Source of the DNA: a virus
Length of the DNA stretch: 64,000 nt
Reading direction: 5' to 3' (one strand)
Virus record (IMG/VR): IMGVR_UViG_3300009135_000001
Location: 1 to 64,000 of that record
Shown here: piece by piece, positions 5,742-59,607 of the stretch
Position numbering within the stretch: position 1 is the stretch's first letter
How the letters are laid out: the number at the start of each line of letters is the position of its first letter
The notes under the pieces: model-generated
Seen by the model: only the letters and a program-made list of their open reading frames with translations
Database searches by the model: none
Told to the model about the DNA's origin: nothing
Position numbers and translations under genes: made by a program

Positions 5742-7123
5742 TGGCTGGCCCCATTATCCAACTAGCGATGCGTCGCGATGTTGCGGCGGATTGGACATCA
5801 AACGACCCAATACTAGCCTCAGGCGAGATCGGGTATGAAACCGATACTGGCTGGCACAAGATGGGTGATGGGTCATCCACATGGACAGAATTGGGTTATT
5901 ACCACGGCCCGCCTTGGTTGGAAGGCTGGGACGGCGGCACACCCAGTTCAACGTTTCCAGGTACGCCTATACCGGCTGATAAATTCGGCGTTATGAGTTC
6001 CGTTGATTTAGGTATACTTCCGCCGATCTCGCTGGACCTTAGCGAAGGCTGGGACATTATGGATGCTGTCGGCCGCGCTGATCCTGCTGATGGCGGCACA
6101 ATCGCAGTTGTCGGCAGCAAGACTGGCGCTACATTCGACTTGGGCATTTTGAATATCTCGACCAATACCATGACCGTGATATCAGATGCCTTCGCCGGTA
6201 CTGGGATGACGGTCTGCTCGGGTATCGATTATGATGCGTCCAGCGGAGTATATGTAGTGCTCCGCAGAAACTCTGTCGGCAATACTTACCACACTTACTG
6301 GGCGGATACTGGTGATCTGGACGGAAACTGGACGCAGACCACTAACCCCGGCACGACCTCGCACGGCGCTTACGGTTTGTGGTTCGATGAAAATCATGGA
6401 ATTTGGTACTGGTCAACTGGTGCAAGACTATATGTATCGGCTGACGGCAAGACTTTTTATAACCAAACTATGTACTACGACCCATTCGGTACGTTCAATG
6501 CCTCGCTTGCCAAATGTTTTATGCACAGCGATCTTTTTGTCGCTGACACTGCTTTTTTGGGCGCTAACGGCGAAAGAATTATGGGCTCAAAACCGAATGA
6601 TCAGACGATGCCAATCAACGCCGCATCCCCCTACGGGGAGTTCTGGGAAGGTTACCAACTTGACGGTGGGGGCTTAATAGATTCAGGCAACCCTGAGTGG
6701 ACTTCGTGCATGGTTTTTGAAGATGAAATGTATCTCGGCAGTAATGGCGGGGAAATAATAAAGACCGCTACTGGAGCACGGGGGATAGGCAACTGGAGTG
6801 TTGTATCAGCAGATCAAGCGGGGTCATCATCGAACGAGATTATTGATGCTGGTGGGTTTTGGTATTTTATGACCGTTATTAACGGCGTGTTTTGGGCTTG
6901 TGAGAGTGCTGGCGGCGCTGGAAACTGGTATCGATACGGAACAGGCGGCGCGCCTACCGGGTACGGCTGGGTGCAAGACGACACCGGCCCGTTTGGGGTA
7001 ACGGTAATATCAGGCGCGGGCGAAGCCATGAGGGCTATGCGAACTCCAGACATGCAGTTTGCTTATGTTGGCCGGGAAACTTTGGCGGCTTCTGATTACC
7101 ACTGCTACTTTAATACAAGCTGA
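5741..7123 (+). CDS. Fibre protein: Mtd-like N-terminus plus propeller-like body
   Basis: A 460-residue protein. Residues 1 to about 85 repeat the Mtd_N-like module of the upstream gene (RRDVAADWTSNDPILASGEI, then DTGWHKMGDGSSTW and GVMSS). The remaining part is rich in Gly, Trp and Tyr and contains strand-turn repeats such as RLYVSADGKTF that resemble BNR propeller blades. I infer a receptor-binding fibre tip. The module boundary coincides with the end of the short upstream paralogue, which suggests exchange of tip domains behind a constant base. Confidence 0.65.
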   Translation: MAGPIIQLAMRRDVAADWTSNDPILASGEIGYETDTGWHKMGDGSSTWTELGYYHGPPWLEGWDGGTPSSTFPGTPIPADKFGVMSSVDLGILPPISLDLSEGWDIMDAVGRADPADGGTIAVVGSKTGATFDLGILNISTNTMTVISDAFAGTGMTVCSGIDYDASSGVYVVLRRNSVGNTYHTYWADTGDLDGNWTQTTNPGTTSHGAYGLWFDENHGIWYWSTGARLYVSADGKTFYNQTMYYDPFGTFNASLAKCFMHSDLFVADTAFLGANGERIMGSKPNDQTMPINAASPYGEFWEGYQLDGGGLIDSGNPEWTSCMVFEDEMYLGSNGGEIIKTATGARGIGNWSVVSADQAGSSSNEIIDAGGFWYFMTVINGVFWACESAGGAGNWYRYGTGGAPTGYGWVQDDTGPFGVTVISGAGEAMRAMRTPDMQFAYVGRETLAASDYHCYFNTS

Positions 7124-9832: not shown

Positions 9833-10830
9833 TCTTAACTAATGAAGAGGTTGACGATCTCTTCAAAGGCACAACCTTCGGAATTGAGTTCGATTGTGGG
9901 GAGTTCGACAGAAAGGCAATTCTCCCGCACGGGCACACGTGGTGCACCGACGAGGTGGCGTCGCACAGTGGGGCCGGAATTGGCGCTGATCCGACGTTGC
10001 GCTACAATATGTTCGGAGGGGAAGTGCAGACTGCGCCAGCAGACTCGGAAGAACAGCTCTTCAATTACGTTGACGACATCCTACGGGCCGTGCTCCCAAG
10101 CGACCGGTTGCGGTTCGCGTCAACCATCCACGTCCACGTGCGTATACCGAAACTGCTGGAGCGCCCCGACCTCATTAAAGACCTCGTAAGGTGGGCTACC
10201 TTGTGGACACCTGAGCTCTCGAAGCACTGGTATCGGTGGGAGAACACTGACTACAGCCACTTGCCAGAAGAAGCGCGGTGGTATTACAAATGGTCCGAAG
10301 ATTGTAATCTGCGCGTCAAGTCGCAGATTTACAACCAAGCCGCCCTCGATCGCATGGACGCAGCACCTGGCACTCCGAGGGAAATAGCTTGTGCCCTACA
10401 CGACAACCCTATCGACTGGAAGAATGAATGGACGTACGACCTGAATAACAAAGGCCGTGTCCACCGCCCCGCCATCAACTTCGGCCACTTGGCGCTGAAC
10501 GAGACCATTGAGTTCCGCTGCTTCCAAGCAACCACGGACAGAGCTATTCTCCGCAATATATGCGGAGTTCCGCTCCGTATTCTCCGCATGGCTCTCACGA
10601 ATGATCCAGACCCTTGTCGCGCAGTACGTGGTACGAAGCTCCAAGATAACTTCACATTGATCTACGGTGGCGATACTGAGAGCAAGCTAATAGCTGCGGG
10701 CAGGACAAGTTTGTATTACAATAGCTATACCGATTACCGTAACCGAATAGCAGTCATGCTACTCAGGAAAGAGATAACCGTTGCAGACCTCAACTACCCC
10801 CAATATTGGTTGGATAGAGGATTCCAATAA
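9829..10830 (+). CDS. Amidoligase-family enzyme (Amidoligase_2-like)
   Basis: A 333-residue protein with the hallmarks of the COOH-NH2 ligase superfamily related to gamma-glutamylcysteine synthetase: an N-terminal FGIEFDCGEF strand (residues about 16-25) supplying acidic metal/ATP ligands, HVHV at about 101-104, and ETIEFRCF at about 225-232 with the conserved E-F-R. Enzymes of this family use ATP to form an isopeptide or amide bond between a carboxyl and an amino group. Phage members are known from comparative genomics and are suspected to modify peptides or proteins. The gene is coupled by ATGA to a fibre gene and followed by two GNAT-type genes, which suggests a modification cassette. The substrate cannot be told from sequence. 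Confidence 0.75.
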   Translation: MILTNEEVDDLFKGTTFGIEFDCGEFDRKAILPHGHTWCTDEVASHSGAGIGADPTLRYNMFGGEVQTAPADSEEQLFNYVDDILRAVLPSDRLRFASTIHVHVRIPKLLERPDLIKDLVRWATLWTPELSKHWYRWENTDYSHLPEEARWYYKWSEDCNLRVKSQIYNQAALDRMDAAPGTPREIACALHDNPIDWKNEWTYDLNNKGRVHRPAINFGHLALNETIEFRCFQATTDRAILRNICGVPLRILRMALTNDPDPCRAVRGTKLQDNFTLIYGGDTESKLIAAGRTSLYYNSYTDYRNRIAVMLLRKEITVADLNYPQYWLDRGFQ

Positions 10831-23912: not shown

Positions 23913-26900
23913 ATCCTGCCTGGCCAAAGTTAAGAAAGCTGGTTTCGACACCAGCACGCTACCCCTGTCTGAGCTAGAAATATCCAGCAACCCCACTGCG
24001 GTCATAGACTCAGAGCTTACACAACTTCGTCAGGAACACGAAGAACTTTTCACTACGCGTGAACGCCTGATGGAACAGGTGCGTCAATTCTCCCCGGAGA
24101 TGAACGAAGCTATTCAGGAGCATATCGATGAAGAAATCCAAATTAATAAACCCTCCAGGCCGATTGGGCCCAAACAACCCACCCCCGGAGAGCAGGCGGG
24201 GCTTGCTGGTAGGAATGCTGTTGGCCTCCCTAAACAGCCACAGAAACAGACCCCCCGTCCTCTTGCAAACCTTGAGCAAGCAGTCGAGACAAAGAAAGCC
24301 ACGGTTGGAGAAGAAGAGGCGGCTAAAGTCAGCAAAACTATGGCGGTCTTACGTCGAGCTCAGCGGGATGGCAAGGAGTACCACGAGCTAAGTACTGGGT
24401 ACGCAGTACGAAAGGCTGTGGCTGCTGGCAAAATGAAAGAGATACGGGCGATGTTTCCTGAGGAGACATCTAATACTGCGGCCATGAAGAAGTTCCAACA
24501 GGTCGCCAAAAATCAAACCTCTACGGAGAAGAAAGATGATTCACCGGTATTTAACAAGCGACAAGAGAAACAACTTGGTGCATTCAACAAAGACACCATC
24601 GCACAGAGAAGCGATGAAGTGGCACCTCGTGGAGAAAAGGAAACTAGCGATGATTCGCAACTTGAAGGCGTCACCGAGCAAGAACAACAGCCAGTCGAAG
24701 TTCGCATCGAGCCGTACGTCAATAAGAAAGGCAAATCTACGGAACTTAGCGGCGTGGTTGGCATCGCCCGGCGGATCAAGAACCTTATCCCCGGCGCAAC
24801 AATGTTCAGAGAAAGCGCAGGTGGGGGGCTAAGCACCTATGTCATCAAAGTGGATAATGCAGAGCAGGGCGCGTATGATGGAACACCGCAACAACTTGCG
24901 GCCCAGCTTACCAAGACCTTCACTGACGGCAAACGTACGGACAAGAATAGACTCATCCTATATGACAAAAGCGGAGAGGCAATTCCTGTTAACTCCCGGG
25001 AAATCACCAAACTTGGCGCTATCGTCGACCAAACCACACAAGACGCTTCCATGGCTCCGGTCGAGAAGTCAGGCAAACAATTCAATGCTGGCCTAGCCTT
25101 CCTGATGGTTGAGGGCAACCTGTCCCTCCAGAAAGTCAGGACAAAAGCGAAAGCAAAGAAGCCGCCCTCACCGTTGGACAACAAGTCTATCAACGAGGCG
25201 TGGAACATGCTGCCGAAATTCCTTCGCAGCGTTATCAAACAGCTGACGTGGATGACCCCCGCTGACAAAGTGATAATCATCGAGAAGCACGGTGTTGAAC
25301 CACTGGGCCTGGCGCAGCAAGCGAACAGCTGGATATTCATCAACAAAGAAAAGCTGGCTAAGAGCAAGCATGGCGACCTCAATGCGCAGGTTGTCCTGCT
25401 GCATGAGTCTGGACATATTGCTGACGCTGAGTTGAACTACGAGCCACGTAACGATTGGCTCACCAACGACATGCTGGTGAAGTATTACCAGTCCGGTACG
25501 AACCCGAAAGATCCGATGCATCAGGTCTTCAAGCGTATCTTCAACCCCGATGGGAACTATACGCAGGAAGAGTGGCGCAAGGAAGTTGTGGCCCAGCTCT
25601 ACATGGCGTATCATTTGTACCCTGACCAATTAAAAGCGTACAGTCCCGAGGGCTATGCGTTAGCGGAGAGAATCAATGACGAGCTACAGCTCAAAGCAGA
25701 CTTCCTCGCCAGAGAGCAAGAGGCTCGCGAGGCAAGCGGTGCGGCAGGAAGAGGCCGAAGTGATGGGCAAAGCCAAGGCGTTGCGGAATCGCAAGAAAAA
25801 GCAGAAGGAAGCGAAGGAAATCTTGACCTTAGCACCGTAATCGATGGCCGTGGGACAACCGTTGCACAAGCTGCTGAATACATATCTACCCGTAAGAAAA
25901 AACCGGCAGATTTCGACCCGCGTGATATTGAGGAAGTTGCGGGTGAGGTCGAAGGTGAAGCAGACACCCGAGCCTTTGAAACTGACGATGCGCAAGCGGC
26001 TCGCAGCTCTGGACGCTCTAAGACCGCACCTGAGCTTATCGGGGAGACACTTCGTCCGAAGACGGTTAATCCGTCCAATGAGGAAGCAAAGCGTGTCTTC
26101 GATGCGTCAACCGAGCGTAAGGCATTCGGGAAGATACCGTCAGCGTTCATCGCTGTTACCAATAAACTATTCGGCCAACTGGGTATCAAGACTAAAGTTC
26201 TTGTGGTTGATAAGGCCGGGGCGCAGGAACTGCTCAAGGAAACGGGGCTTCCGTCTCAATGGGCGGACAATCTCAAGCAGGCTATAAACGACGAGCCTGT
26301 CGGGCGGCTCATGCTATCCGACAGCAGCAACGCGAACGAACGCTTTGCTATCATCTACATCGACACCAAACAAACCCCCGCTAAAACACAGCGTGCGCTG
26401 CTCCACGAGCTTGGTCACATCGTGCAACTTGCGAAGTTAGATCAAGCCTCGCCTGAGATTCAAAAGGCTCTCAGGGACGCACACGAGGGCTCACAGACCC
26501 AAAAGGAATTCGAGGAGTGGTTCGCGGATCAACTTCTCCAGTGGGTTGACAGCAAAAAAGCTCCCAAAGGCGTGCTCGAACAGTTCTTCAAGGAGTTGGC
26601 ACGAGTCTTGCGTCGGGTCTACAACAAATTCAGCGGGGCGCATCCTACTTATGAGCAATTTATGGATAGCTTGGTTGCTGCAAACCAGCTTAAGAGAGGA
26701 ATGCAGAAGCCAGCATCGGGGAAACATCGTCGTGATTGGATTGAAGACATGCGTAACAGCGTGGATTCGCCGTTCCTTGCTCCGCAAGAGCGCTCTTTCT
26801 ACAATTTCAACGGTGATCCGTCCCCTACCAGGGCTGGAGTATCCAGTAAAGCTGAGAAAGTTCTCGACTGGGGTAAAGAAAAGGCCTCAGGAACCAAAGA

Positions 26901-28809
26901 AGCGCTAGGAGAAATCTTCTCACCCGCTCATCAGATCATCACACAGACTTCTGACGCCTATTTGCGTGCAAATGGACTCGCTTGGCTCGCAGATCACTTC
27001 CACAAACGCCCGGATGTAAGCACTTCTCGTACTGGCCCCACCATCGAGCAGGAAATTCGTGGAGAATTCGGCCAGTTTGAGGCTGATATCGACAAGGTTC
27101 TTGGAAAGATGCCAAAAGGCACACGTATTTTCAACCACGTCGACCGTAAAGACCCGAAATATGCTCAAGCTGTTCAGGATTTGCTCAGCCAGAGCGACAA
27201 TCCTAACGCTTTGGCGAAGCAGGTGCGCGACTACTTCGCGATGATGGAGAATTATTTACGCAAAAACGGTGTTCAGCTGAAGAAAAGACGCAAATACTTC
27301 CCGATAATGCTCGACAAGCACCAGTGGATGGCGAATCACGACAAAGTTGTCGAAATAGCCATGACCAAACTCGGCAAAACCCGAGCAGAAGCAGAGAATA
27401 TGTACCTGGCGGTCGCCAACGACCCGTCGACGTTCGCCGACATGTCGACAGAATACGATCCACGGACGACTGCAACCTTTGGCCACGCCAAAAGCAGGGA
27501 GTTCGGGGTGAAGGAACACTTGGCGTTCGCCGAATTCATCGATACTGACCTCGCGTCTGTGGTCAAGAACTACACCCACAGCGCTGTCAAGCATGTCGTT
27601 GTCAACAGACAGTTCGGTGCTCTTGGCACGAAAGCCGGTCAAGTCGATCCACTGATTAACCTAAAAACGCAAATGACGAAGGCTCTGATCGCTGGTGAGA
27701 TAACGCAGGAGGTCTATGACCGCACCTGGAACACTGTTATTCCCGGTATGTTCGGGCAGCTGGGCGCTAATATGAACCCAACCCTTCGTAAAATGCAGTC
27801 AGGTCTGATATTCTTCCAGAATGTCAGACTCCTCGGAACCGCCGTACTCTCTTCACTCGTCGATCCCGTACACGTTCTGTACAGAAGTGGAACTCTCCGG
27901 GGCCAGTGGACCAATCTTCGAAAGGCAATGGGGGAACTTAACGATAAGGAGGCGCAGCTCTTCTACCGGACGCTTGGTATCATTCGGGACGATCTCACAG
28001 AGGCAATTGTTAATGACCCTACGCATACACAGTTTTACGCGCCCAAGATTAGAAGCCTTAACGAAACGTTTTTCCGACTGAACGGGATGCAAGCGCTGAC
28101 TAACCTCGGCCGCATGTTCTCTTTCAGTGCTGGTAGGCAGTTCATCATGGAAGCTGCCAAAAATAATGACACGAAGCGCCTTGCAGAAATGGGACTTACC
28201 CGACAAGAAGTACTCGACTGGGATAGCCGTGGGCAACCGTTCGCCCTCGACAATCCGGTAGACGCTAACGTGCTATACGCGCTGCACCAGTTTGTAGATG
28301 AGTCAATCCTCCGCCCGAGCGCAGCAATGCGCCCTGCGTGGATGTCCGATCAGCGATGGTTGCTCATTGCAAACCTCAAGTCCTTCATCTTCACCTACCA
28401 CGAGACGATCCTACGTCGTATCTGGAGCCAAGTACGAGCTGGTGAGATCAAAGACCCTGCGGTACTCCTGCCGTTCGTAGCCTTCGCAGCCGTCGCACTT
28501 GGTGTGTCGATGTTCGGTTACGAGGCACGTAGACAGATCATGAACGCTGGTGATATCCCCCCATACGCCCGAGCCGATGCCATGGACTACATATGGGAGG
28601 GCTTACAACGTACCGGCGCACTTGGTACTATGCAGTTCCTGGTTGACGCGATGGAGGCTGAGAGCAGAGGCAAGATGGCGTTGTTCTCAGTACTAGGTCC
28701 GACGGCTTCGCAGTTCGAGATGCTAATGACTAAGGATCTGAGCTACTCCATTCCACGTTCCCTGCCTATATTCGCCCAGAGCGCTGCTCTACGTGAGTGG
28801 GTGCGATAA
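23899..28809 (+). CDS. Giant polyvalent-type protein with two zincin-like metallopeptidase domains
   Basis: A 1636-residue protein. Two zinc-protease motifs are visible: LLHESGHIAD with H-E-x-x-H at residue about 502, and LLHELGHIVQ at about 836 followed by EEWFADQ as a possible third ligand. A long helical C-terminal region contains hydrophobic segments (near residues 1530-1550, VLLPFVAFAAVALGVSMFG) and resembles the large C-terminal modules of phage polyvalent proteins, which are injected with the DNA. I infer an ejected protein that acts on host proteins early in infection. Peptidase activity is inferred from motifs only. An AGGGG is found about 7 bases before the ATG. Confidence 0.65.
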   Translation: MASLKSCLAKVKKAGFDTSTLPLSELEISSNPTAVIDSELTQLRQEHEELFTTRERLMEQVRQFSPEMNEAIQEHIDEEIQINKPSRPIGPKQPTPGEQAGLAGRNAVGLPKQPQKQTPRPLANLEQAVETKKATVGEEEAAKVSKTMAVLRRAQRDGKEYHELSTGYAVRKAVAAGKMKEIRAMFPEETSNTAAMKKFQQVAKNQTSTEKKDDSPVFNKRQEKQLGAFNKDTIAQRSDEVAPRGEKETSDDSQLEGVTEQEQQPVEVRIEPYVNKKGKSTELSGVVGIARRIKNLIPGATMFRESAGGGLSTYVIKVDNAEQGAYDGTPQQLAAQLTKTFTDGKRTDKNRLILYDKSGEAIPVNSREITKLGAIVDQTTQDASMAPVEKSGKQFNAGLAFLMVEGNLSLQKVRTKAKAKKPPSPLDNKSINEAWNMLPKFLRSVIKQLTWMTPADKVIIIEKHGVEPLGLAQQANSWIFINKEKLAKSKHGDLNAQVVLLHESGHIADAELNYEPRNDWLTNDMLVKYYQSGTNPKDPMHQVFKRIFNPDGNYTQEEWRKEVVAQLYMAYHLYPDQLKAYSPEGYALAERINDELQLKADFLAREQEAREASGAAGRGRSDGQSQGVAESQEKAEGSEGNLDLSTVIDGRGTTVAQAAEYISTRKKKPADFDPRDIEEVAGEVEGEADTRAFETDDAQAARSSGRSKTAPELIGETLRPKTVNPSNEEAKRVFDASTERKAFGKIPSAFIAVTNKLFGQLGIKTKVLVVDKAGAQELLKETGLPSQWADNLKQAINDEPVGRLMLSDSSNANERFAIIYIDTKQTPAKTQRALLHELGHIVQLAKLDQASPEIQKALRDAHEGSQTQKEFEEWFADQLLQWVDSKKAPKGVLEQFFKELARVLRRVYNKFSGAHPTYEQFMDSLVAANQLKRGMQKPASGKHRRDWIEDMRNSVDSPFLAPQERSFYNFNGDPSPTRAGVSSKAEKVLDWGKEKASGTKEALGEIFSPAHQIITQTSDAYLRANGLAWLADHFHKRPDVSTSRTGPTIEQEIRGEFGQFEADIDKVLGKMPKGTRIFNHVDRKDPKYAQAVQDLLSQSDNPNALAKQVRDYFAMMENYLRKNGVQLKKRRKYFPIMLDKHQWMANHDKVVEIAMTKLGKTRAEAENMYLAVANDPSTFADMSTEYDPRTTATFGHAKSREFGVKEHLAFAEFIDTDLASVVKNYTHSAVKHVVVNRQFGALGTKAGQVDPLINLKTQMTKALIAGEITQEVYDRTWNTVIPGMFGQLGANMNPTLRKMQSGLIFFQNVRLLGTAVLSSLVDPVHVLYRSGTLRGQWTNLRKAMGELNDKEAQLFYRTLGIIRDDLTEAIVNDPTHTQFYAPKIRSLNETFFRLNGMQALTNLGRMFSFSAGRQFIMEAAKNNDTKRLAEMGLTRQEVLDWDSRGQPFALDNPVDANVLYALHQFVDESILRPSAAMRPAWMSDQRWLLIANLKSFIFTYHETILRRIWSQVRAGEIKDPAVLLPFVAFAAVALGVSMFGYEARRQIMNAGDIPPYARADAMDYIWEGLQRTGALGTMQFLVDAMEAESRGKMALFSVLGPTASQFEMLMTKDLSYSIPRSLPIFAQSAALREWVR

Positions 28810-28829
28810 AAAAGCCCCCACCCCACTAA

Positions 28830-28864
28830 GTACAATGTACAAAGGACAAAGTAGACAGGGACGT
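28830..28864. repeat. Heptad GTAC array A
   Basis: Five unspaced 7-bp units on the plus strand: GTACAAT, GTACAAA, GGACAAA, GTAGACA, GGGACGT. The core GTAC (or one-base variants) returns every 7 bases. The array lies in the 81-bp gap before the endolysin gene. See the finding on heptad arrays for the full set. Confidence 0.6.
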
Positions 28865-31172: not shown

Positions 31173-31415
31173 TTAGTTGTCCAGGTTACGACGCCAAGCG
31201 GCGTAGTCAAAAAGTGGGATTTGGTGTTTGCGGGTGGTATCTGCCATATCCAAGTATGTTACTGTAAGGTATGCGCCTGCAAAGGTCAAATCAGTCAGCT
31301 GATAAAAATTGGTGATCCCGATCCATGCCATGAAGTCTTCTTTGTTTTCATGGATGAATAGGTGGTGTTCTTCGATTAAATGTACTGCACGTAGGATACT
31401 CTTGGCTTGGTTCAT
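31173..31415 (-). CDS. Hypothetical protein (80 residues)
   Basis: Not recognised. An 80-residue soluble protein with helix-rich N-terminus (AKSILRAVHLIEEHHLFIHE) and a beta-rich C-terminus. It begins with an ATGA overlap with the AP2 gene above it and is followed after 2 bases by the next gene. Confidence 0.5.
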   Translation of the reverse strand: MNQAKSILRAVHLIEEHHLFIHENKEDFMAWIGITNFYQLTDLTFAGAYLTVTYLDMADTTRKHQIPLFDYAAWRRNLDN

Positions 31416-31732
31416 AGGATGCTCAGGGTTGTGATCAGGTCTTCGGTGTTGGCGGTTTTGAGGTCAAGTTCTTCAAGCTTTTTGGATGCAGCATTTCGCT
31501 GTATCTCTTTGGCCTCTTCATATGCTGCAATGCTGGAATGGAAGCTTTTGAAGTAACCCAAAAAGATAACCGTACCGGATTTGTAAAGACGAACCCGCCA
31601 CCGTTTTTTGGCAGCTTCATAATAGATACCTTTCGGGATGTCGCTTTTGTACTTCCGATAAAATTTCTTATCGGGTAGCACTAACGCGGCGCTTAAAAGC
31701 CCGCCAGTGGTCGTCGTTTGGAGCGAGCGCAT
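31412..31732 (-). CDS. AP2-domain protein
   Basis: A 106-residue protein whose residues about 33-72 read KGIYYEAAKKRWRVRL, then LGYFKSFHSSIAAYEEAKE. This is the three-strand plus helix pattern of the AP2/ERF DNA-binding domain that accompanies many phage homing endonucleases; no nuclease domain is attached. The ATG at 31732 overlaps the upstream gene by 65 bases; a GTG at 31681 would cut the overlap to 14 bases, and neither has a good ribosome binding site. Likely a DNA-binding protein or a homing endonuclease remnant. Confidence 0.6.
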   Translation of the reverse strand: MRSLQTTTTGGLLSAALVLPDKKFYRKYKSDIPKGIYYEAAKKRWRVRLYKSGTVIFLGYFKSFHSSIAAYEEAKEIQRNAASKKLEELDLKTANTEDLITTLSIL

Positions 31733-32087
31733 AGAGAAAAATGTCTAAAATTGATGGAGCGAATCCTGAGAAGAAATCATACTCAGGGATTTGTTCAGCA
31801 TATACTTCAATTTTGTTCGGTTGTGACATTAGTTCATCTACCATCATTCTGATGATCGCCCTTTTTTCCGGTTCTAACGGGAAGAATGGGGGGTGCGGAT
31901 ATTTGTCGTCGAGATATTGTATGCAAGTCGACATACCGCGAATTTCTAAATTTTTATCCCTAATCATTATGCCTGGGGAATCGAGGATGATCCCACACTC
32001 TGTAGCCATCAGGTCTTTTCTGGCTAGACACTCCTTGATAACGGGATACATCACGTCATCAGGGTTGTAAATTTTTATTGGCCGCAT
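31668..32087 (-). CDS. SspA/glutathione S-transferase-like protein
   Basis: A 139-residue protein with the GST N-terminal pattern: strand RDKNLEIRGM, then the helix CIQYLDDKYPHPPFFPLEPE, very like the SspA segment E-S-R-I-I-x-E-Y-L-D-E-R-F-P-H-P-P. A C-terminal SILDIFLYALAP matches the helix 6 motif of GST proteins. The first strand is atypical and the protein is shorter than SspA (about 210 residues). SspA binds RNA polymerase and is required for late transcription of phage P1, so a transcription role is possible. Inference from motifs only. Confidence 0.55.
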   Translation of the reverse strand: MRPIKIYNPDDVMYPVIKECLARKDLMATECGIILDSPGIMIRDKNLEIRGMSTCIQYLDDKYPHPPFFPLEPEKRAIIRMMVDELMSQPNKIEVYAEQIPEYDFFSGFAPSILDIFLYALAPNDDHWRAFKRRVSATR

Positions 32088-33500: not shown

Positions 33501-34877
33501 TTACATTCCTAATATGTCGAGAAGGGAGGCTTGCTGATCGATCTTCCCTTGGAGTTTATTATACACGTGTTCTTCCAGCGTTGCACTTGCGGTGATGTGG
33601 ATAGTTTCGGTCTTCCTCGTCTGCCCAGCGCGGTATATCCGCCGGTTGAACTGTTCGTATTGCTCCGACGACCATGTTGGCGAGCTCCATATCGTGGTAG
33701 TACCCCGAGTAAGAGTTAAACCATGGGCCGCTGAGCGAGGATGGGCAAAGATGACCTTGATCACCCCGTTCTGAAAATCTTCGACCACTTTTTGACGTTG
33801 AGCGTCGTTCGCCGCCCCATTTATTACGCCATACGGAATCTTCTCCTTTGTCGCCAGCAGTTCCAATTCCGCCAATTGGTGGCCCCAGTTGTAAGCGACT
33901 ACGCATGAGTCACGCTCTTTGACCAGTTGGATTATCAATTCGTACCGAGCTGTATCGAATAGTTCTGCCGTACTGTCGTTTTTGTACACGCTTCCTGAGG
34001 ACAACTGTAACAATTTGCCCGTTAATACGGCGGCGTTCGCTGCGGTTATGTCCTCCGTAGCCAGTTGGATCAAAGCATGCTCTGCCAGAATATCGTATTG
34101 CTTCCTCAAAGCGAAAGGTAGGTCGAATGTTACGTCCGTCTTGAAATGTCCTGGTATGTCTATACATTGTTCAAATACGTTCCTGATTGTGATGTCTGAG
34201 AGTAAGTCAGCTACGGCTTCGATGGCACCTTCCTTGTCTTGCCATCGTACCATTTGCGCCCCACGTCCTACTCTGATGGGTTCGCATACGGAGTTACGAA
34301 ATCTCCAGTACGAAGTGCCAAGTCTCTCCCCGTCGTCGAGGATGAATGCTTGGTTCCATATGTCAGTGACTGTGTTCGGTGCTGGTGTTCCGGTCATTAC
34401 TACTCGGTGATCAAAGTGACCAGCAATCCGTTTGACTGCCTTACTACGTTGAGCGCTGGGGTTTTTATATGCCGTCGATTCGTCAATGACAATATCTGTG
34501 ATTTCCAGATACGCCCACGGATTGTCGCGTAGCCACTTGACCGCATCATGATTTGTGATGTAGATATCGGCTTCTTCTTGGAATGCTTTTTGTCTGTTGT
34601 TGGCATACGCTACACTGTATTTTAACTCTGGCTGGAACCTGACGATATCATGTCCCCATGCGGGCTCCAGGATTGATTTGGGGGCCAAGACCAGACATTT
34701 ACGAGAGGGGTCTCTTCGTAGTCTCTCAGCGAACCCGTCAAGGTAAGCACGTGTCTTACCTGTTCCAGGGTCGGACATATCGAAAATCGCCTCGTGTCCG
34801 ACTTGAAATTCAGTGGATTTTGTTTGGTGCTCATAAGCTGGTGGGATTTGATCCTTAGGCAGAGTGAAGTTTGGCAT
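33501..34877 (-). CDS. SNF2-type DNA helicase/ATPase
   Basis: A 458-residue helicase of the SF2/SNF2 type. Motifs seen in order: Walker A DPGTGKT (about 36-42), LAPKSIL, DE-type Walker B VIDEST (about 130), VMTGTPAPN (motif III), RSAAHGLTL and QFNRRIYRAGQT (motif VI with the arginine finger). Phage relatives (compare T4 UvsW) remodel or unwind DNA during replication and repair. It overlaps the methyltransferase-like gene by 23 bases. Confidence 0.85.
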   Translation of the reverse strand: MPNFTLPKDQIPPAYEHQTKSTEFQVGHEAIFDMSDPGTGKTRAYLDGFAERLRRDPSRKCLVLAPKSILEPAWGHDIVRFQPELKYSVAYANNRQKAFQEEADIYITNHDAVKWLRDNPWAYLEITDIVIDESTAYKNPSAQRSKAVKRIAGHFDHRVVMTGTPAPNTVTDIWNQAFILDDGERLGTSYWRFRNSVCEPIRVGRGAQMVRWQDKEGAIEAVADLLSDITIRNVFEQCIDIPGHFKTDVTFDLPFALRKQYDILAEHALIQLATEDITAANAAVLTGKLLQLSSGSVYKNDSTAELFDTARYELIIQLVKERDSCVVAYNWGHQLAELELLATKEKIPYGVINGAANDAQRQKVVEDFQNGVIKVIFAHPRSAAHGLTLTRGTTTIWSSPTWSSEQYEQFNRRIYRAGQTRKTETIHITASATLEEHVYNKLQGKIDQQASLLDILGM

Positions 34878-35562
34878 TTAGCGTTTTTCCATTAGCGGTA
34901 TATACCGCTTGAGCGAATCCGCGTGGGGTAGCAGAACGGATGTTTTTCGTTTTGAGGCTCTTGCCTCCGAGTTTCGTATGTTGAAGAGACGCCCCGGTTT
35001 GGGGCTTAACAGGGAGTTTTTCCGGCATCTTAAAGTCACCGCCAGTCCAAAGGCACGTTTTTTTCGTGTAGGCGTCTCTTGCAGCAATGTTCTCGGGGTA
35101 TAGCGGGTGGATGTCGTCACTTGGCAAATAGCCTCCGTATTCAAATGGGTCGAACATGTAGTCTGGTTTGCCGCAGTAGGTTGAGAACGTGCTGATTGGG
35201 TTCTCGATAAAATAAGGACACCCGAGCCACTCTCCCAGTTCACGACAAGTCGCGAATAAATCGAGGGAGAGCGATAGCGCTCGGGGGCCTTTCTTCTGAA
35301 ACCACAACGCGCCACTGACGGCAACGTTGGTGCATTCGGGAAAGCTACCCATGAAAGCAACCCGACCAACGATTTCGCGTGGTGGTATCCAGCCGTTTCG
35401 AATATCCGCGCCCACTTTGAATAGCCCAGGTCGGGCGGGGTCTTCGTATATTCCTGTTTTGTGTTGTCGATCGACGATATAACATTCGTATCCAGCGTCC
35501 AGCCAGGGCTGAGCCATGATACCTGTTAGATCGAAAAGAAATACTGCTACGTTTTTTTGCAT
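34855..35562 (-). CDS. C5-cytosine methyltransferase-like phage protein
   Basis: A 235-residue protein with a Rossmann-like start (VFLFDLTGIMAQPWLDAG), FPECTNVAVSG where a PPC-type motif IV is expected, and YFIENP where C5 methyltransferases have ENV. The ending KLGGKSLKTKNIRSATPRGF is typical of a conserved phage family annotated as methylase-like. The putative catalytic Cys is kept, but the pro-pro is not. It may methylate DNA, or be a relative with another substrate. Confidence 0.6.
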   Translation of the reverse strand: MQKNVAVFLFDLTGIMAQPWLDAGYECYIVDRQHKTGIYEDPARPGLFKVGADIRNGWIPPREIVGRVAFMGSFPECTNVAVSGALWFQKKGPRALSLSLDLFATCRELGEWLGCPYFIENPISTFSTYCGKPDYMFDPFEYGGYLPSDDIHPLYPENIAARDAYTKKTCLWTGGDFKMPEKLPVKPQTGASLQHTKLGGKSLKTKNIRSATPRGFAQAVYTANGKTLNAKLHSA

Positions 35563-35711: not shown

Positions 35712-36010
35712 AGGATTCTCAGTGGTGTCATTTTGTTTGCGAGATACCAGGTCCCACCTTGGGACTTAGGGCGTTCTTCACTCGTGTACTCCTCGATCTC
35801 AACCTCAACCCATTGTCGATCTCCATTATTGCTGAGGTGCGGTGCAGATGGTTGGGGGCAGCAATGGAATCCGGGGCGTACTTTGTAGCCCATCGTGGGG
35901 TGGCTTTCCGCTTCGTACGTCGTGCCAAGTGCGAGGCGCAAAGGTCTGTTGATGAATAGTGGTCCAAGTGTTCCGTCCTTTCGTTGTTTCATAAGTTTGT
36001 ATGCGATCAT
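35708..36010 (-). CDS. Conserved phage protein (100 residues)
   Basis: A conserved short protein family in phages, recognised by AYKLMKQRKDGTLGPLFINR and RPGFHCCPQPSAPHLS and SQGGTWYLANK. Function unknown. It overlaps the small gene before it and the Cas4-like gene after it by four bases each. Confidence 0.65.
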   Translation of the reverse strand: MIAYKLMKQRKDGTLGPLFINRPLRLALGTTYEAESHPTMGYKVRPGFHCCPQPSAPHLSNNGDRQWVEVEIEEYTSEERPKSQGGTWYLANKMTPLRIL

Positions 36011-44272: not shown

Positions 44273-44723
44273 TGGGTATAAACCTCTTGATTTCTGGTAA
44301 GCGCTGCAAAGCTTTTTCTACGGTTGTTTCCCTTAGCGCTATTTCTGCACCCCTTAGGAGAGCATTAGCGGCTTCATCCATTTCGTCTCTCCGTTTGAAA
44401 TAGTTGTAGATTGCTTCGGGCACGTCGTCGGGACTGGTTTCGATGGTTAAGTAATAAGAATTTTGGTCGTCGCTTATTCGGAGAACTCCGTACGCTTCGT
44501 TCGGCAATTCTAACCTGAATGATCCTACGTTTGTTATCCGTACGTTAGCGTGGCTCCACGAACATTCATAGAAAAACTTGTGAATGGATGGGTCCATTTT
44601 GAGATGGTCGGCGAGATGTAAGCAAGTCTGCCAATCAGGAACCGAAAGCCGTTCCTTGGCTTCGTTGAAAAAGTTCCTGATGTTAACGCGAACCGTGCGC
44701 CGTATTTTTTCGTTTGTTCTCAC
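44259..44723 (-). CDS. MoxR-coupled protein, unknown
   Basis: A GTG at 44723 overlaps the MoxR stop (GTGA), giving 154 residues; an ATG at 44753 would start inside the MoxR gene. The protein has a central beta part (NVRITNVGSFRLEL, YYLTIETSPDD) and helices at the end. Function unknown. Confidence 0.5.
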   Translation of the reverse strand: MRTNEKIRRTVRVNIRNFFNEAKERLSVPDWQTCLHLADHLKMDPSIHKFFYECSWSHANVRITNVGSFRLELPNEAYGVLRISDDQNSYYLTIETSPDDVPEAIYNYFKRRDEMDEAANALLRGAEIALRETTVEKALQRLPEIKRFIPNETK

Positions 44724-45709
44724 AATAGGATGTCCGTGTTGTCGGCGATCCACTCGGCCATTTCCTTGGTCTCAAGAAGATCTGGTGAACGTTGGATGGT
44801 CATCTTGACCGTCGGTACCTGGAATTCATCAGGCATACGGCGCAGATATTCGTTGACCTTCGGAATGTTCTTGTCGGTCATGTGCTCTGAAAGCATACCT
44901 GCGGTAGCGTAAAGTGATGCTGGCTCTGATGGCATTGGAGTGCCTTTCGGGTCTTTTTCGATAGACTCGATGTCGGGCAGATCACGATAGATACGAATGT
45001 ATGACATGAATTCGCCTGCTGCTGCCTCACCCACTGTGGCAATTAACATTTCGTATTCCAGGTCAGGTGTTGCAGAGTTCAGGATGCGAGATGCATAGGC
45101 CCAAGTACGAGGTGTAGCGAACTGACGTGCGTCGGATGCAGCGTGGTCTTCTTCGTGCAACATTTCAGGACGAAAGCGCATGAAAGAGATAATTTCAGGA
45201 CGTACGTTGTTGCTGTTCGCCCAGTCAACCCAGTCTTGAAGTTGGGGTTCGAAATCGATGTGGATCAGCCTGTTGTTCAGTGCTGATGACATCTTGTTGG
45301 CGAGGGCACGATCTTTCGCACGGTTGCCTGCGCAGATGATACGCCATCCTTCGGGCAGTGTGTAGTCACCCACTTTGCGATCGAGGATCAGTTGGTAGGC
45401 AGCTGCTTGTACTGCATGAGAGGCCTGGTTGATTTCATCAAAGAAGATAACACCTTCAGGCTCAACATCGGGGTTGGGTAAGAAATGCGGGACGTTCCAT
45501 ACTGTGTAGCCATCGACACATGACGGGATGCCACGGATGTCAACGGGGTCCATTTGAGACAGACGTACGTCTCGGACAGGGAAGGATTTGCCAGCGGCGA
45601 CTTGGAAAACGACTTCGGATTTACCGACGCCTGGGGCTCCCCATATCATTACGGGGATATCGGCATCAATACCGATGTTGATAGCTGCTTCAGCTTTTGA
45701 CGGATTCAT
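44720..45709 (-). CDS. MoxR-type AAA+ ATPase
   Basis: A 329-residue ATPase with Walker A GAPGVGKS (24-31), Walker B VIFFDEIN (about 85-92), sensor 1 region ICAGNRAKDRA and an arginine-rich lid. MoxR ATPases act with VWA proteins to remodel or insert metal into protein complexes. Here the VWA partner is at 40229. It heads a leftward set of eight genes ending at 40229. Confidence 0.85.
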   Translation of the reverse strand: MNPSKAEAAINIGIDADIPVMIWGAPGVGKSEVVFQVAAGKSFPVRDVRLSQMDPVDIRGIPSCVDGYTVWNVPHFLPNPDVEPEGVIFFDEINQASHAVQAAAYQLILDRKVGDYTLPEGWRIICAGNRAKDRALANKMSSALNNRLIHIDFEPQLQDWVDWANSNNVRPEIISFMRFRPEMLHEEDHAASDARQFATPRTWAYASRILNSATPDLEYEMLIATVGEAAAGEFMSYIRIYRDLPDIESIEKDPKGTPMPSEPASLYATAGMLSEHMTDKNIPKVNEYLRRMPDEFQVPTVKMTIQRSPDLLETKEMAEWIADNTDILL

Positions 45710-47645: not shown

Positions 47646-47908
47646 TTGAGCAGTCTCTTTTTGCCGATTAGTTCGTCGATTTGTTTCTTGATGAAGTCCC
47701 AGTCATCGGTGAAAAACGTAAGCTGGTTTTTTGCGTCCTTGTTTTGCGCAAGGGATACATACTGTCGGCCCTCTTGGTTATCAGAGACGTGAATAAGTGT
47801 CCGCGACTGTGTCGGATTAGGCGTGTCCCTGTGCTGGATACTAACGCCGGTGATGTGCGTCGGAGTTTCATTTGGCGCTTTTTCGGCCATTTTTTGTGCT
47901 GTGTTCAT
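47642..47908 (-). CDS. Hypothetical protein with DWDF-KKQ-DEL motif
   Basis: ATG at 47908 with AGGAAAA about 4 bases upstream gives 88 residues. C-terminal DWDFIKKQIDELIGKKRLLK makes it a paralogue of the 47063 gene. Function unknown. Overlaps the HNH gene by 41 bases. Confidence 0.5.
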   Translation of the reverse strand: MNTAQKMAEKAPNETPTHITGVSIQHRDTPNPTQSRTLIHVSDNQEGRQYVSLAQNKDAKNQLTFFTDDWDFIKKQIDELIGKKRLLK

Positions 47909-48272
47909 GATTTTTTCCTGTGTGGTAATCGTTGATACCGTAGAGTTCCCATTCAAAATGGATTTCACGGTGACAGTTGGCGCAGAGAAGATCGCATTTG
48001 TCCAACTCCGCTTGAAGTGAGGTATATGATTTTCCAAGCGACGTTCCAATGCTGAAGCTTTTCTCCGAGGGCACGCGATGATGAAACTCCAGTGATGTTA
48101 TGCATTTCTTGTATGCACATATCGCGCATTTCCCACCCAGGTATTCCACGGCCCATATCTTTTTCTTTTTCCGATGTCTGGTTACCGCTTCTTGATTGCA
48201 TTTTCTGCATCTCCAACGATTGTCATTGAACATATGGTCGGTGAAACCGTGTGTCGTGCACTTTTCTTTCAT
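47868..48272 (-). CDS. HNH endonuclease
   Basis: I choose ATG at 48272 (134 residues). The HNH fold is recognised by KCAICAYKKC, LEFHHRVPSEK and LLCANCHREIHFE: two CxxC zinc pairs, the H-H and N-H residues. A free-standing HNH nuclease of the homing endonuclease type. It lies in a region of small genes and overlaps both neighbours. Confidence 0.75.
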   Translation of the reverse strand: MKEKCTTHGFTDHMFNDNRWRCRKCNQEAVTRHRKKKKIWAVEYLGGKCAICAYKKCITSLEFHHRVPSEKSFSIGTSLGKSYTSLQAELDKCDLLCANCHREIHFEWELYGINDYHTGKNHEHSTKNGRKSAK

Positions 48273-48537
48273 AGAGATTTTCTTCCTGCATCCATCGCTG
48301 CCAATTTTTGTAATACCAGATGTTGAACATCCAGGCCCCACTTTTCTTTTGCCACATGATCGGGTAACTGCGCGTGTCGTGACCTTCCGGTAAGAACCAT
48401 GTACCGTCCTCTTGGCGGAATCCTGCCAAGCGCAAAGTGCTACGTACTACGTCTACGCGGTCGGGTCGCACTCGTGCGTTGTGGCCTCGGTTAAGTAGCG
48501 CTTGTTTGACGTATAGCAGGTTATCTTCCATGCTCAT
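48223..48537 (-). CDS. Hypothetical protein (104 residues)
   Basis: Not recognised. A 104-residue protein with a helix start and aromatic stretch (MFNIWYYKNWQRWMQEENLY). Overlaps the HNH gene by 50 bases and the upstream gene by 4. Confidence 0.45.
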   Translation of the reverse strand: MSMEDNLLYVKQALLNRGHNARVRPDRVDVVRSTLRLAGFRQEDGTWFLPEGHDTRSYPIMWQKKSGAWMFNIWYYKNWQRWMQEENLYERKVHDTRFHRPYVQ

Positions 48538-48713: not shown

Positions 48714-49213
48714 TAGTTGTCGAACCAGTAGACCATACGAATGTGGTCCATGTTTTGGGCGTCGATGATGTGGTTCCATTTGAGTTTGCGTTGGATGTGG
48801 GCATCAAGTGCGTTGTGCATTTCAGTAAGTGGTGAGTCTGCTCCGCGAAGTACGCGGTACTGTGCCGCCATGTGGCGAAACTCTGTGGCGGTACACCAGT
48901 TGGGTGAGTGTGCGTCGCAATCCCAGCGTTTGAATTCTGCTGTGATTTCAGGGCAACTGTCTTGTGGAAATCCTTTTTTTACGATGTAGGGGCCAGGTGC
49001 TTCGCCGCGTACTCCATCTGATAGAATGGAGAATTTTTCGTACCATCGGTTGTCGTCGAATTCTACAACTATGAATCGTTCGCCGTCGTATTCTTCGTCG
49101 CCGAGTTTGGTGTCGGGAATGAAGTAGTCGTTCTTTTCATAGAAGTCGAATGTTTCCCAGCGTTGTTTGTTCTCGTTGTATTTTTCGAGAAAGATGTGTA
49201 TATCGCATCCCAT
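48713..49213 (-). CDS. Conserved phage protein, MGCDIH family
   Basis: A 166-residue protein that begins MGCDIHIFLEKYNENK, a start found in many phage proteins of unknown function. Further conserved elements are NWCTATEFRHM and HIRMVYWFDN. Role unknown. Confidence 0.65.
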   Translation of the reverse strand: MGCDIHIFLEKYNENKQRWETFDFYEKNDYFIPDTKLGDEEYDGERFIVVEFDDNRWYEKFSILSDGVRGEAPGPYIVKKGFPQDSCPEITAEFKRWDCDAHSPNWCTATEFRHMAAQYRVLRGADSPLTEMHNALDAHIQRKLKWNHIIDAQNMDHIRMVYWFDN

Positions 49214-50910: not shown

Positions 50911-51201
50911 TTAATCGTCTAGCTTACCATACATGTGCATTGGTTGTGGGTCGACTGGTGTGTTTTCCAGTTCTTTGCGAGCGAATTCTTCCTGAATGTC
51001 CAGGACATGCCGTGCTTTGGCGATGTCTTCGATGTGTTGTTCGAAGGTGCCTTTGTGGCGGCGCAGGTATTTGTCGACTTTGCAATACACAGCGGCTTGA
51101 AGCCCTGCATAACCAAAGTTGTTGTATGTTGCTTCGAGCGGCTGGACTTTCATGTTTTTGTAGTGCCCGCCACCAATTTGTTCTTTCAGAGGTGATGTCA
51201 T
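50911..51201 (-). CDS. DUF3310-family phage protein
   Basis: A 96-residue protein with GGGHYKNMKVQPLEATYNNF and a helical part YLRRHKGTFEQHIEDIAKA. This is the DUF3310 (SaV-like) family of small phage proteins, often called nucleotide kinase-like though activity is not shown. Coupled to the gene above by ATGA. Confidence 0.75.
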   Translation of the reverse strand: MTSPLKEQIGGGHYKNMKVQPLEATYNNFGYAGLQAAVYCKVDKYLRRHKGTFEQHIEDIAKARHVLDIQEEFARKELENTPVDPQPMHMYGKLDD

Positions 51202-53350: not shown

Positions 53351-53388
53351 TTTTGGTCTCCAGACCGTGTCACTTCCAAAGCGACACA

Positions 53389-53409
53389 GTACGTTGTACG
53401 AGGTACTTT
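53389..53409. repeat. Heptad GTAC array B
   Basis: Three unspaced units: GTACGTT, GTACGAG, GTACTTT. Located in the 5' leader of the small membrane protein gene. Confidence 0.6.
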
Positions 53410-53591
53410 GCGTCCAGGTTTCGATGAAAAGCTCGAATCCTAAATGCGAATGATTCTCAATAAGTGCTGTTTTGTGCACACTTTGAGGGGGTGCTGTGCC
53501 ACTTCATGGCAGGGTGATGTTCTCACTTTGTTCTCACCCTCGCGGTGGAACGCGAGCATTATTGGGGGGGTAAGTCGTTGTAAAGTAACGA

Positions 53592-53620
53592 ATTACTAAA
53601 TATATACATTTTAGGTACAA
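53592..53620 (-). promoter_or_regulatory. Candidate leftward promoter with -35 inside array C
   Basis: Minus strand: -35 TTGTAC, 17-base spacer, -10 AGTAAT (4 of 6). The -35 is formed by the first unit of array C, so binding to the array would cover it. Region 53480-53738 contains this promoter, the array, the long inverted repeat, and a third copy of the outer arm (CTGTGCCACTT at 53494-53504). No gene is seen in it. Confidence 0.4.
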
Positions 53621-53649
53621 AGTACAAAGTACTAAGTACGAAGTGCTGT
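53615..53649. repeat. Heptad GTAC array C
   Basis: Five unspaced units: GTACAAA twice, GTACTAA, GTACGAA, GTGCTGT. The most regular of the arrays. It borders the long inverted repeat. Confidence 0.75.
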
Positions 53650-53736
53650 GCCACTTTGCCTCCATGTTGGCCCACAGAAATTAAAAAACTGTAAATATAA
53701 TTTCCGTGGCCAAACATAGGAGTAAAGTGGCACAGC
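53645..53736. repeat. Long inverted repeat (about 38-bp arms)
   Basis: Outer arms CTGTGCCACTTT (53646-53657) and AAAGTGGCACAG (53724-53735) are perfect inverted copies. Inner arms CCATGTTGGCCCACAGAAATTA (up to 53683) and its inverted near-copy from 53698 pair except for a few bases. The loop is AT-rich and short (53684-53697). One DNA strand or RNA could fold into a large stem. Possibilities are replication origin, terminator, or structured RNA. Confidence 0.7.
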
Positions 53737-58546: not shown

Positions 58547-58657
58547 TTAGTACGCTATAGCAGCGCCCAAGAGCACGCCTACTGGGTACGCCGAGACGAT
58601 GATCCATAGTACGATGAACGTGGTACTGCGTACGTAGTGTATAGTGCTATGTGACAT
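58547..58657 (-). CDS. Possible membrane peptide (36 residues)
   Basis: ATG at 58657 with AGGAG 7 bases upstream, TAA at 58547-58549. The 36 residues form one membrane segment (FIVLWIIVSAYPVGVLL). It lies over heptad array D, so the reading frame is partly made from repeat units; the ribosome binding site is the main support. The region 58440-58546 has no other gene. Confidence 0.4.
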   Translation of the reverse strand: MSHSTIHYVRSTTFIVLWIIVSAYPVGVLLGAAIAY

Positions 58658-58661
58658 GGTA
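58609..58661. repeat. Heptad GTAC array D
   Basis: Units GTACGAT, GAACGTG, GTACTGC, GTACGTA, GTGTATA, GTGCTAT, GTGACAT, with a last GGTATTA. The longest array, about 8 units, just downstream of the candidate leftward promoter. Confidence 0.65.
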
Positions 58662-58688
58662 TTACTCCTGTTGTGGGTGAGTTCATGA

Positions 58689-58697
58689 TATATACCA
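58689..58697 (-). promoter_or_regulatory. Candidate leftward early promoter (extended -10)
   Basis: Minus strand TGGTATATA, an extended -10 (TG-N-TATATA), with a poor -35. The start would be about 20-25 bases before the AGGAG and ATG at 58657, and array D covers the transcribed leader. It would drive the leftward operon from 58439 downward. Confidence 0.35.
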
Positions 58698-58714
58698 GTT
58701 GCTGAGCTTGCGAG

Positions 58715-58763
58715 GCACTGCGCACGTGGCACTGTGTACATCGTGTGTAGAGGAACGTTTGGG
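58715..58763. repeat. Heptad GYAC array E
   Basis: Units GCACTGC, GCACGTG, GCACTGT, GTACATC, GTGTGTA, GAGGAAC, GTTTGGG. Four clear units, then decay. Lies just upstream of the leftward promoter. Confidence 0.6.
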
Positions 58764-58779
58764 GCCCCATATTGGCGTT

Positions 58780-58828
58780 GTACTTTGAACTTGGTACGGT
58801 GTACATCGGAATCGGTGCGGAGTCGGAA
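58780..58828. repeat. Heptad GYAC array F
   Basis: Units GTACTTT, GAACTTG, GTACGGT, GTACATC, GGAATCG, GTGCGGA, GTCGGAA. Seven units in register, about 100 bp upstream of the strong rightward promoter. The part between 58664 and 58925 contains no credible gene. Confidence 0.65.
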
Positions 58829-58925
58829 ATCTGGGACAGGGGTATGTGGAATATGGACGACCAGAACGCATATTTCGCACGAAAAAAATTTTTTGGATAT
58901 TTTTGGGTATTTTTTTGGGTATCGC

Positions 58926-58954
58926 TTGACATATGTATAGGAAATCCCTATATT
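58926..58954 (+). promoter_or_regulatory. Strong sigma-70 type rightward promoter
   Basis: TTGACA (perfect -35), exactly 17 bases, TATATT (5 of 6 of the -10 consensus). Upstream is AT-rich with A and T tracts (UP-element-like). It would start transcription near 58961 and read through the 59000 gene, both tRNAs and on to the terminase genes. Confidence 0.75.
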
Positions 58955-58999
58955 GTATGCATGACTTAGATAACTAGACAGAAAAACCCGTTTCTTCGA

Positions 59000-59404
59000 G
59001 TGAAATTGAAAGACCTCGCCCATGAGGCTCGAATGATTCGAATAGAAGAGACCAGGGCTAATAAAAGTCACAACTACCAGCTCCAAAACGAATTACATGC
59101 ACACAGGGTCGGACCTTTGCGTTCCCACACCCGTGAGACCTTGCTCTCCTACATGTACTTGCGTGGTTACCCCTACGATGCCGTGGAGGTCACTGGTAGT
59201 AAGGAGATATCACCCACAGGAAAGAAAAACATCCGCCGCATGTGCAAAAAGTACGGCGGAGTAGAAATGACGCTCGATGAATGGATTTCGGGTAATCGAT
59301 TAAGGCGGGGTAGCTCAGGAGCACAGAGCGCCATTAACTTGGAGGTCGTAAGTTCAACTCTTACCCCCGCCACCAAATTTGCCTCGTTAGCTCAGTCTGG
59401 TTAG
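59000..59404 (+). CDS. Conserved phage protein; frame runs through a tRNA gene
   Basis: GTG at 59000 gives 134 residues. The first about 100 residues (KLKDLAHEARMIRIEETRAN, HRVGPLRSHTRETLLSYMYL) match a family of small phage proteins located just before the terminase genes, which normally end near a KYGGVEMTLDEWI-type C-terminus. Here there is no stop until inside the second tRNA (59402-59404), so the last 35 codons lie over the tRNA-like gene at 59304. Either the true stop was lost or the long form is made. No ribosome binding site is clear. Confidence 0.55.
   Translation: MKLKDLAHEARMIRIEETRANKSHNYQLQNELHAHRVGPLRSHTRETLLSYMYLRGYPYDAVEVTGSKEISPTGKKNIRRMCKKYGGVEMTLDEWISGNRLRRGSSGAQSAINLEVVSSTLTPATKFASLAQSG
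59304..59375 (+). tRNA. tRNA-like gene with shortened anticodon arm
   Basis: Plus strand. GGCGGGG/CCCCGCC acceptor, GCTC/GAGC D stem, GTAAG-TTCAACT-CTTAC T arm, discriminator A and encoded CCA are all perfect. Between the D and T arms only 18 bases are present instead of about 23; the only pairing found is CCA/TGG around a 6-base loop TTAACT. Therefore the anticodon cannot be read with confidence. Confidence 0.6.
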
Positions 59405-59458
59405 AGCGCCGCGCACTAAACGCGGATGTCGGAGGTTCGAATCCTTCACGAGGCACCA
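59381..59458 (+). tRNA. tRNA with anticodon CTA (amber), A at position 33
   Basis: Plus strand. All arms are perfect: GCCTCGT/ACGAGGC acceptor, GCTC/GAGC D stem, CCGCG/CGCGG anticodon stem, GGAGG/CCTTC T stem (one G-U), discriminator A, encoded CCA. The 7-base loop is CACTAAA, which places CTA at 34-36 (59416-59418), reading UAG, and A at position 33 instead of the near-universal U. The identity cannot be told. Confidence 0.75.
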
Positions 59459-59462
59459 ATTT

Positions 59463-59480
59463 TATACCCGATCGGGTATA
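59463..59480. promoter_or_regulatory. Perfect palindrome, operator-like (copy 1)
   Basis: TATACCC-GATC-GGGTATA, an 18-bp perfect palindrome just after the second tRNA. Copy 2 follows 27 bp downstream (centre to centre). Likely a dimer-binding operator. Confidence 0.6.
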
Positions 59481-59489
59481 TTCTCACTT

Positions 59490-59507
59490 TATACCCTTGC
59501 GGGTATA
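59490..59507. promoter_or_regulatory. Palindrome, operator-like (copy 2)
   Basis: TATACCC-TTGC-GGGTATA, the same 7-base arms with a different centre. Together with copy 1 forms a tandem operator pair before the terminase genes. Could also act as small RNA hairpins. Confidence 0.6.
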
Positions 59508-59565
59508 CGCCAAATGTGTCATATAACGGTCATAAAGCGGCTTAATGCGCCATATATGAGACATA

Positions 59566-59607
59566 GCACCTTGCACTTCGTACCAAGTACGTCGTACTAT
59601 GGCAGTC
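59566..59607. repeat. Heptad GYAC array G
   Basis: Units GCACCTT, GCACTTC, GTACCAA, GTACGTC, GTACTAT, GGCAGTC. Six units ending 28 bases before the ATG of the terminase small subunit gene. Confidence 0.65.

Follow-up and report, generated by a model that had tools for sequence, protein, structure and literature searches.

Phased arrays of a 7-bp palindromic box in a tailed-phage genome are putative binding sites of a cooperative regulator

Why does a phage genome carry GTAC and GCAC cores at exact 7-base steps, concentrated in a divergent control region, and which protein might read them? The window analyzed here, a stretch of 64,000 nucleotides, is part of a 75,483-bp viral contig whose end copies its first 6,052 bases exactly; because its ends thus wrap round, the genome can be regarded as essentially complete at about 68,874 bp. 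Behind these identical bases the overlapping ends diverge inside a tail-fibre gene (window 5741–7123 and L006 11615–12481), which is present as two alleles within one assembly. The genome is that of a tailed phage with an internal virion protein, tail fibres, a DNA polymerase, a primase-like protein and a terminase, and its nearest described relative according to TerL is Aeromonas phage phiA008 (45%). The TerL proteins of four viral contigs (L007 to L010) are 86–88% identical to that of this phage; G001, one of the four relatives at this level, is 68,696 bp long and appears to be an entire genome bearing a short end repeat. Searches with the DNA polymerase, the 1636-aa protein and a 274-aa protein retrieved no new clade members. 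The gene sets of the phage and its relatives, which are few, were called from open reading frames. They include a DNA methyltransferase (PHROG 757; window 34855–35562) that is 89% identical in G001.

All seven arrays of the original prediction were located at their places, and the exact 7-base phasing of GTAC or GCAC (GYAC) holds overall, but some arrays contain non-GYAC units. The array at 28830 has two exact consecutive GYAC cores followed by GGAC, those at 53389, 58715 and 59566 have three, four and five, respectively, and the one at 53615 has four plus GTGC; the arrays at 58609 and 58780 carry three exact GTAC apiece, interrupted by one GAAC. A whole-genome scan of the phage and its relatives against a shuffled control, as had been proposed, placed the arrays far above chance. 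Runs of at least three GYAC at 7-bp steps occur 13 times on both strands of the 68,874-bp genome versus 0.03 in dinucleotide-based shuffles, and 15 times in G001 (TerL 86% identical). On the plus strand, period 7 yields 24 runs of at least two and seven of at least three, compared with no more than 11 and none at any other period in the range 5–13. When four cores are taken as a window and 13 or more of the 16 positions must match, period 7 has 86 windows in the phage and 90 in G001 versus 0–16 at other periods, except 14, so that the enriched periods are 7 and its multiple 14 only. A control with the reversed pattern gave zero matches in the phage or its relatives. Shuffles and period controls together rule out a chance origin. 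Phasing is the enriched property because GTAC as such is not over-represented (0.97), which also led us to reject the idea of a methylation site GTAC that is present in excess. GYAC pairs that stand alone in genes are flanked by C at –4 (76% of the cases) and by G at +14 (67%), positions outside the search pattern, and the typical site thus consists of three abutting palindromic ACnnnGY boxes (21 bp). The palindromic GTAC core, initially described as the unit, is better written in this form, GTAC being where two boxes meet. Three-box sites that match at 11/12 or better occur 28 times in this phage and 21 times in its relative. The arrays have not been lost in close relatives and are kept in L007, L008, L009 and L010 while their spacers change; none was detected in 18 remote relatives.

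The divergent region upstream of the leftward operon holds three long arrays, namely, array A (58609–58661, boxes 58611–58652), array B (58715–58763, boxes 58710–58744) and array C (58780–58828, boxes 58775–58809). Array D (59559–59607, boxes 59561–59602) ends roughly 35 nt ahead of the start codon of terS (59636), and a similar site with similar spacing to terS is found in G001 and L007. Two long arrays are found ahead of the leftward unit beginning at 53350; an array of three to four boxes (53384–53411) lies 34 nt before the start codon and is classified as intergenic because it is located upstream of the conserved ATG of its ORF, and a five-box array between leftward genes (53615–53653) has a homologous counterpart in G001 (51124–51165). 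Another array (28816–28854) separates the gene of the 1636-aa protein from that of an endolysin-like M15 peptidase at 28891, and one that was absent from the original list (48423–48454) is intergenic and about 82 nt upstream of the gene at 47868–48341. Every one of the longest arrays, i.e. those with at least 35 bp of boxes, is located between genes.

Array C is surrounded in three relatives by a conserved noncoding element (58757–58900; TTTGGGGCCCCATATTGGC ... ACGACCA). A small conserved ORF over this array (58579–58932) was rejected, as the differences are even across codon positions and indels are present. The number of promoter-like matches near the arrays is at chance level, and the sole strong one is a sigma-70-like TTGACA-17-TATATT on the plus strand (58926–58954; 11/12, a consensus match only). 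The insert that separates arrays C and D (window 58960–59460) is different in each relative while the arrays persist; in this phage it comprises an ORF and tRNAs, in L007 an HNH-like ORF (recognized by eye) and in G001 nothing obvious. One tRNA gene (59381–59458) has the amber-suppressor type anticodon CTA and is called Pyl by ARAGORN, an odd tRNA-like gene adjoins it (59304–59375), and the TAG stop is still used at 19 of 87 conserved gene ends. Two palindromes TATACCC-N4-GGGTATA (window 59463–59507), together with GGGTAT half-sites at 58905 and 58917, constitute a second, operator-like motif of the control region.

The view that the arrays are only intergenic proved to be wrong. Three-box sites at 11/12 or better are present 18 times in conserved genes of this phage and 11 times in those of G001, where 3.8 and 2.8, respectively, are expected. 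Nor are phased cores equally frequent in shuffled coding sequence: GYAC pairs with period 7 occur 36 times in conserved genes versus 9.6 ± 2.8 after shuffling of synonymous codons within each gene, a procedure that preserves protein and codon usage, not codon context, and the corresponding numbers in G001 are 23 versus 5.2 ± 2.0. Coding pairs at spacings of 6, 8, 9, 10 and 11 are without excess. Synonymous third positions differ less often at the cores (27%) than in the flanks (44%, p=0.005), and the comparison of cores with spacers (27% vs. 37%, p=0.26) is not significant alone. Several in-gene sites occupy the same place in both phages. At 24380–24407 (G001: 20813) the core changes preserve a GTRC pattern, and at 35910–35937 (33334) substitutions fall on Y and spacer positions. 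The three-box site at 48845–48865 is identical in sequence in G001 (46952), the one at 10358–10378 is conserved (7018), that at 28613–28633 has a counterpart (25046) and that at 10619–10639 a weaker one (7279).

Which phage protein could bind these sites? The profile scans recognized no immunity repressor among the matches listed, and no obvious regulator was seen in the segment missing from the window, 4.9 kb of L006. The best phage-encoded candidate is a stand-alone AP2/ERF-fold protein of 106 aa (pI 9.7; 31412–31732, minus strand), whose predicted link to the sites is circumstantial. AlphaFold produced a poor model without an alignment (pLDDT 52) and, based on a two-sequence alignment, a three-stranded sheet plus helix with a pLDDT of 80–88 over residues 31–80. 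In this medium-confidence model, sheet and helix match solved AP2 domains, which are its best matches in the PDB, and its top viral match carries an AP2/ERF annotation. The Pfam AP2 score is below the cut-off, and no relatives of the protein were found among the viral contigs searched. Between the phages, whose whole proteins share only 65% identity, the stretch IPKGIYYE-AKKRWRVRLYK-GTV-FLGY is nearly invariant, as would be expected of two proteins that read the same DNA sequence. Plants, apicomplexans and phage homing endonucleases are the best-known sources of AP2 domains, and to our knowledge a free-standing AP2 domain as phage transcription regulator would be new. The gene overlaps that of an SspA/MglA-like protein of 139 aa (31668–32087, minus strand), a candidate RNA-polymerase co-regulator. 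This protein is shorter than SspA, and the similarity to SspA 3lyp (E 2.8e-5, YPHPP motif aligned) covers the PHP-containing segment with only about 45 aligned residues. Both genes are absent from array-less relatives, which counts little because these are very distant (TerL about 55%) and most genes differ.

To judge from the sequence, the arrays are real, selected-looking and genome-wide putative protein-binding sites, whose binder and role we infer. We consider it probable that they represent operators of a cooperatively binding regulator. A small sequence-specific protein would bind the tandem abutting ACnnnGY boxes, usually at least three, and thereby control the phage transcription units. 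Its cooperative binding would proceed along the helix, with 7 bp corresponding to about two thirds of a turn. The long arrays of the divergent region and those preceding terS, the 53.35-kb leftward unit and the lysis genes may set transcription, and the three-box sites within genes may act as secondary sites for pausing, silencing or DNA organization. The protein encoded at 31412–31732 is the most likely phage-encoded binder, and the adjacent SspA-like protein perhaps contacts the host RNA polymerase. If the boxes in genes indeed reflect codon choice, they would document a DNA-binding system that extends over the genome of a phage in which no repressor was recognized, and the AP2/SspA-like gene pair provides a concrete candidate that is quick to test.

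A host protein such as a nucleoid protein, a silencer or a global regulator could also read the arrays, the phages having evolved or kept its sites. This possibility, to which we assign a distinctly lower probability, is a serious rival because a second lineage carries the same heptads. Two viral contigs from the set with varied spacers, G016 (53,196 bp) and G017 (15,960 bp), have GYAC heptads with independent spacers at many places. The TerL of G016 is only 27% identical to that of this phage, its coding sequences show a comparable excess (19 vs. 5.3 ± 2.2, control region excluded), and its largest array, of 13 heptads, is located in the divergent region, upstream of the terL operon. G016 encodes an HNH-AP2 endonuclease and no free-standing AP2 protein, which speaks against the AP2 assignment. 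That two unrelated phages have the motif in common points either to convergence on similar regulators or to a single host reader used by both. Some bacterial genomes, e.g. an Acidimicrobiia MAG (G010), likewise hold GYAC arrays with independent spacers. However, the arrays of the sampled bacterial genomes are, unlike those of the phages, confined to intergenic DNA (G010: 51 intergenic, and 8 coding vs. 9.2 expected), and among 274 genomes from the Thiohalocapsa class, only 5 hold arrays whose spacers are phage-like, those listed being largely microsatellites. Thiohalocapsa, Sedimenticola and Pelobacter were dismissed as sources of phage-like arrays because their arrays are mostly microsatellites. 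As a side observation, a pattern of four GCAC heptads matches more than 200 times in G010 (L356–L359); the spacers are independent, and the matches often form inverted pairs and are, in the sample that was read, in excess between genes only. A wider proposal, which we put forward as tentative and rather unlikely, is that at least two unrelated phage lineages have evolved a genome-wide ACnnnGY heptad code in control regions and, via codon choice, in genes, and that its reader is either a new type of regulator (e.g. a phage AP2/ERF factor plus SspA-like protein) or a shared host silencer.

The heptads might alternatively be functionless microsatellites born by slippage, an explanation that is improbable and strongly disfavored. 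Heptamers are the most abundant 5–11-nt repeats in most bacterial genomes surveyed (PMC4679880, PMC4692102), and GYAC heptads occur in many phyla, which made a test of the spacers necessary. Arrays grown by slippage should have neighboring 3-bp spacers that resemble each other. The identity of adjacent spacers is 0.27 in this phage (0.32 shuffled), 0.41 in G001 (0.35) and 0.33 in L007 (0.40), compared with 0.84 (0.31) for the heptad matches from the scan of bacterial genomes. Neighboring units of the phage arrays hence do not copy each other, and the statement that the arrays are not a simple duplication is borne out; by this test such an origin is rejected. Moreover, the phage heptads are not kept out of coding sequence: phased pairs are enriched in genes, whose reading frame a 7-bp indel disrupts, and in-gene arrays are found at homologous places in both phages.

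A further alternative regards array C and the A/T-rich tract at 58885–58920 as a replication origin with iterons. The location of this array in the conserved noncoding block, followed by a AAAAAAATTTTTT-type sequence in three relatives, would agree with it, but the sites are distributed genome-wide including the structural genes and no iteron-type initiator was recognized, which makes an origin hardly probable. Even less credit can be given to a centromere bound by a ribbon-helix-helix (RHH) protein of the omega/ParB type with a ParA partner. Unspaced heptads would suit it, and the minimal parS of pSM19035 comprises four contiguous heptads (PMC9499535). However, many genes carry sites, no RHH protein was found in the phage or its relative (conserved ORFs; Pfam, PHROGs and NCBIfam profiles, among the matches listed), and the profile scans, which covered larger proteins partly, recognized no ParA-type ATPase among the matches listed; the sole ATPase match (44720–45709) is to general PHROG ATPase families. 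From the original inference of a global repressor or centromere system, regulator-bound, cooperative sites are supported as the likely reading, whereas an RHH protein and a centromere are not supported, a cryptic or host-encoded RHH protein being conceivable. RNA hairpins formed by the arrays are the least credible reading and disfavored, as folding scores are inconsistent, mild for two arrays (z about –2) and no better than those of shuffles for the remaining ones.

The comparison with known systems reveals partial likeness in every case. Bacterial heptanucleotide repeats, such as TAACTGA of Beggiatoaceae and GGGAATC of Xanthomonas, are mostly intergenic (PMC4679880, PMC4692102); they share the 7-bp unit and a partial heterogeneity of units and differ from the phage arrays with their independent spacers and excess in genes. 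The SspA family acts with small DNA-binding partners, namely, PigR in Francisella and, as proposed, Lpa of phage P1 (PMC2763202). The overlapping genes reported here also combine an SspA-like protein with a small, putatively DNA-binding protein, but both would be phage-encoded, the partner has an AP2 fold instead of a MerR-like one, and their function is predicted. The stoperators of cluster A mycobacteriophages, targets of the L5-type repressor, are asymmetric 13-mer single sites that are monomer-bound, transcription-oriented and located in promoters and short intergenic gaps (PMC9283540). With more than 20 sites over the phage genome, in promoters and elsewhere, they resemble the 28 sites of this phage and the 21 of its relative, whereas the boxes described here are tandem palindromes, many of them in genes, and an immunity repressor gene was not among the profile matches listed. 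The closest parallels are provided by operators with tandem boxes. MetJ binds arrays of met boxes, which are 8-bp palindromes in tandem. Its tandem palindromic boxes suit cooperative dimers as those of the phage would, but the period here is 7 instead of 8, the distribution is phage-wide and no MetJ-like protein was found. The omega protein (ParB, RHH) of plasmid pSM19035 recognizes tandem unspaced heptads in several arrays per replicon within regulatory regions, and unspaced 7-bp heptads in arrays are exactly what the phage exhibits; it differs in its palindromic ACnnnGY boxes, its additional sites within genes and the lack of RHH and ParA matches. At least one diagnostic feature of each system is thus missing, and the arrays would work most like the tandem-box operators of omega and MetJ, spread over the phage genome in the manner of stoperators.
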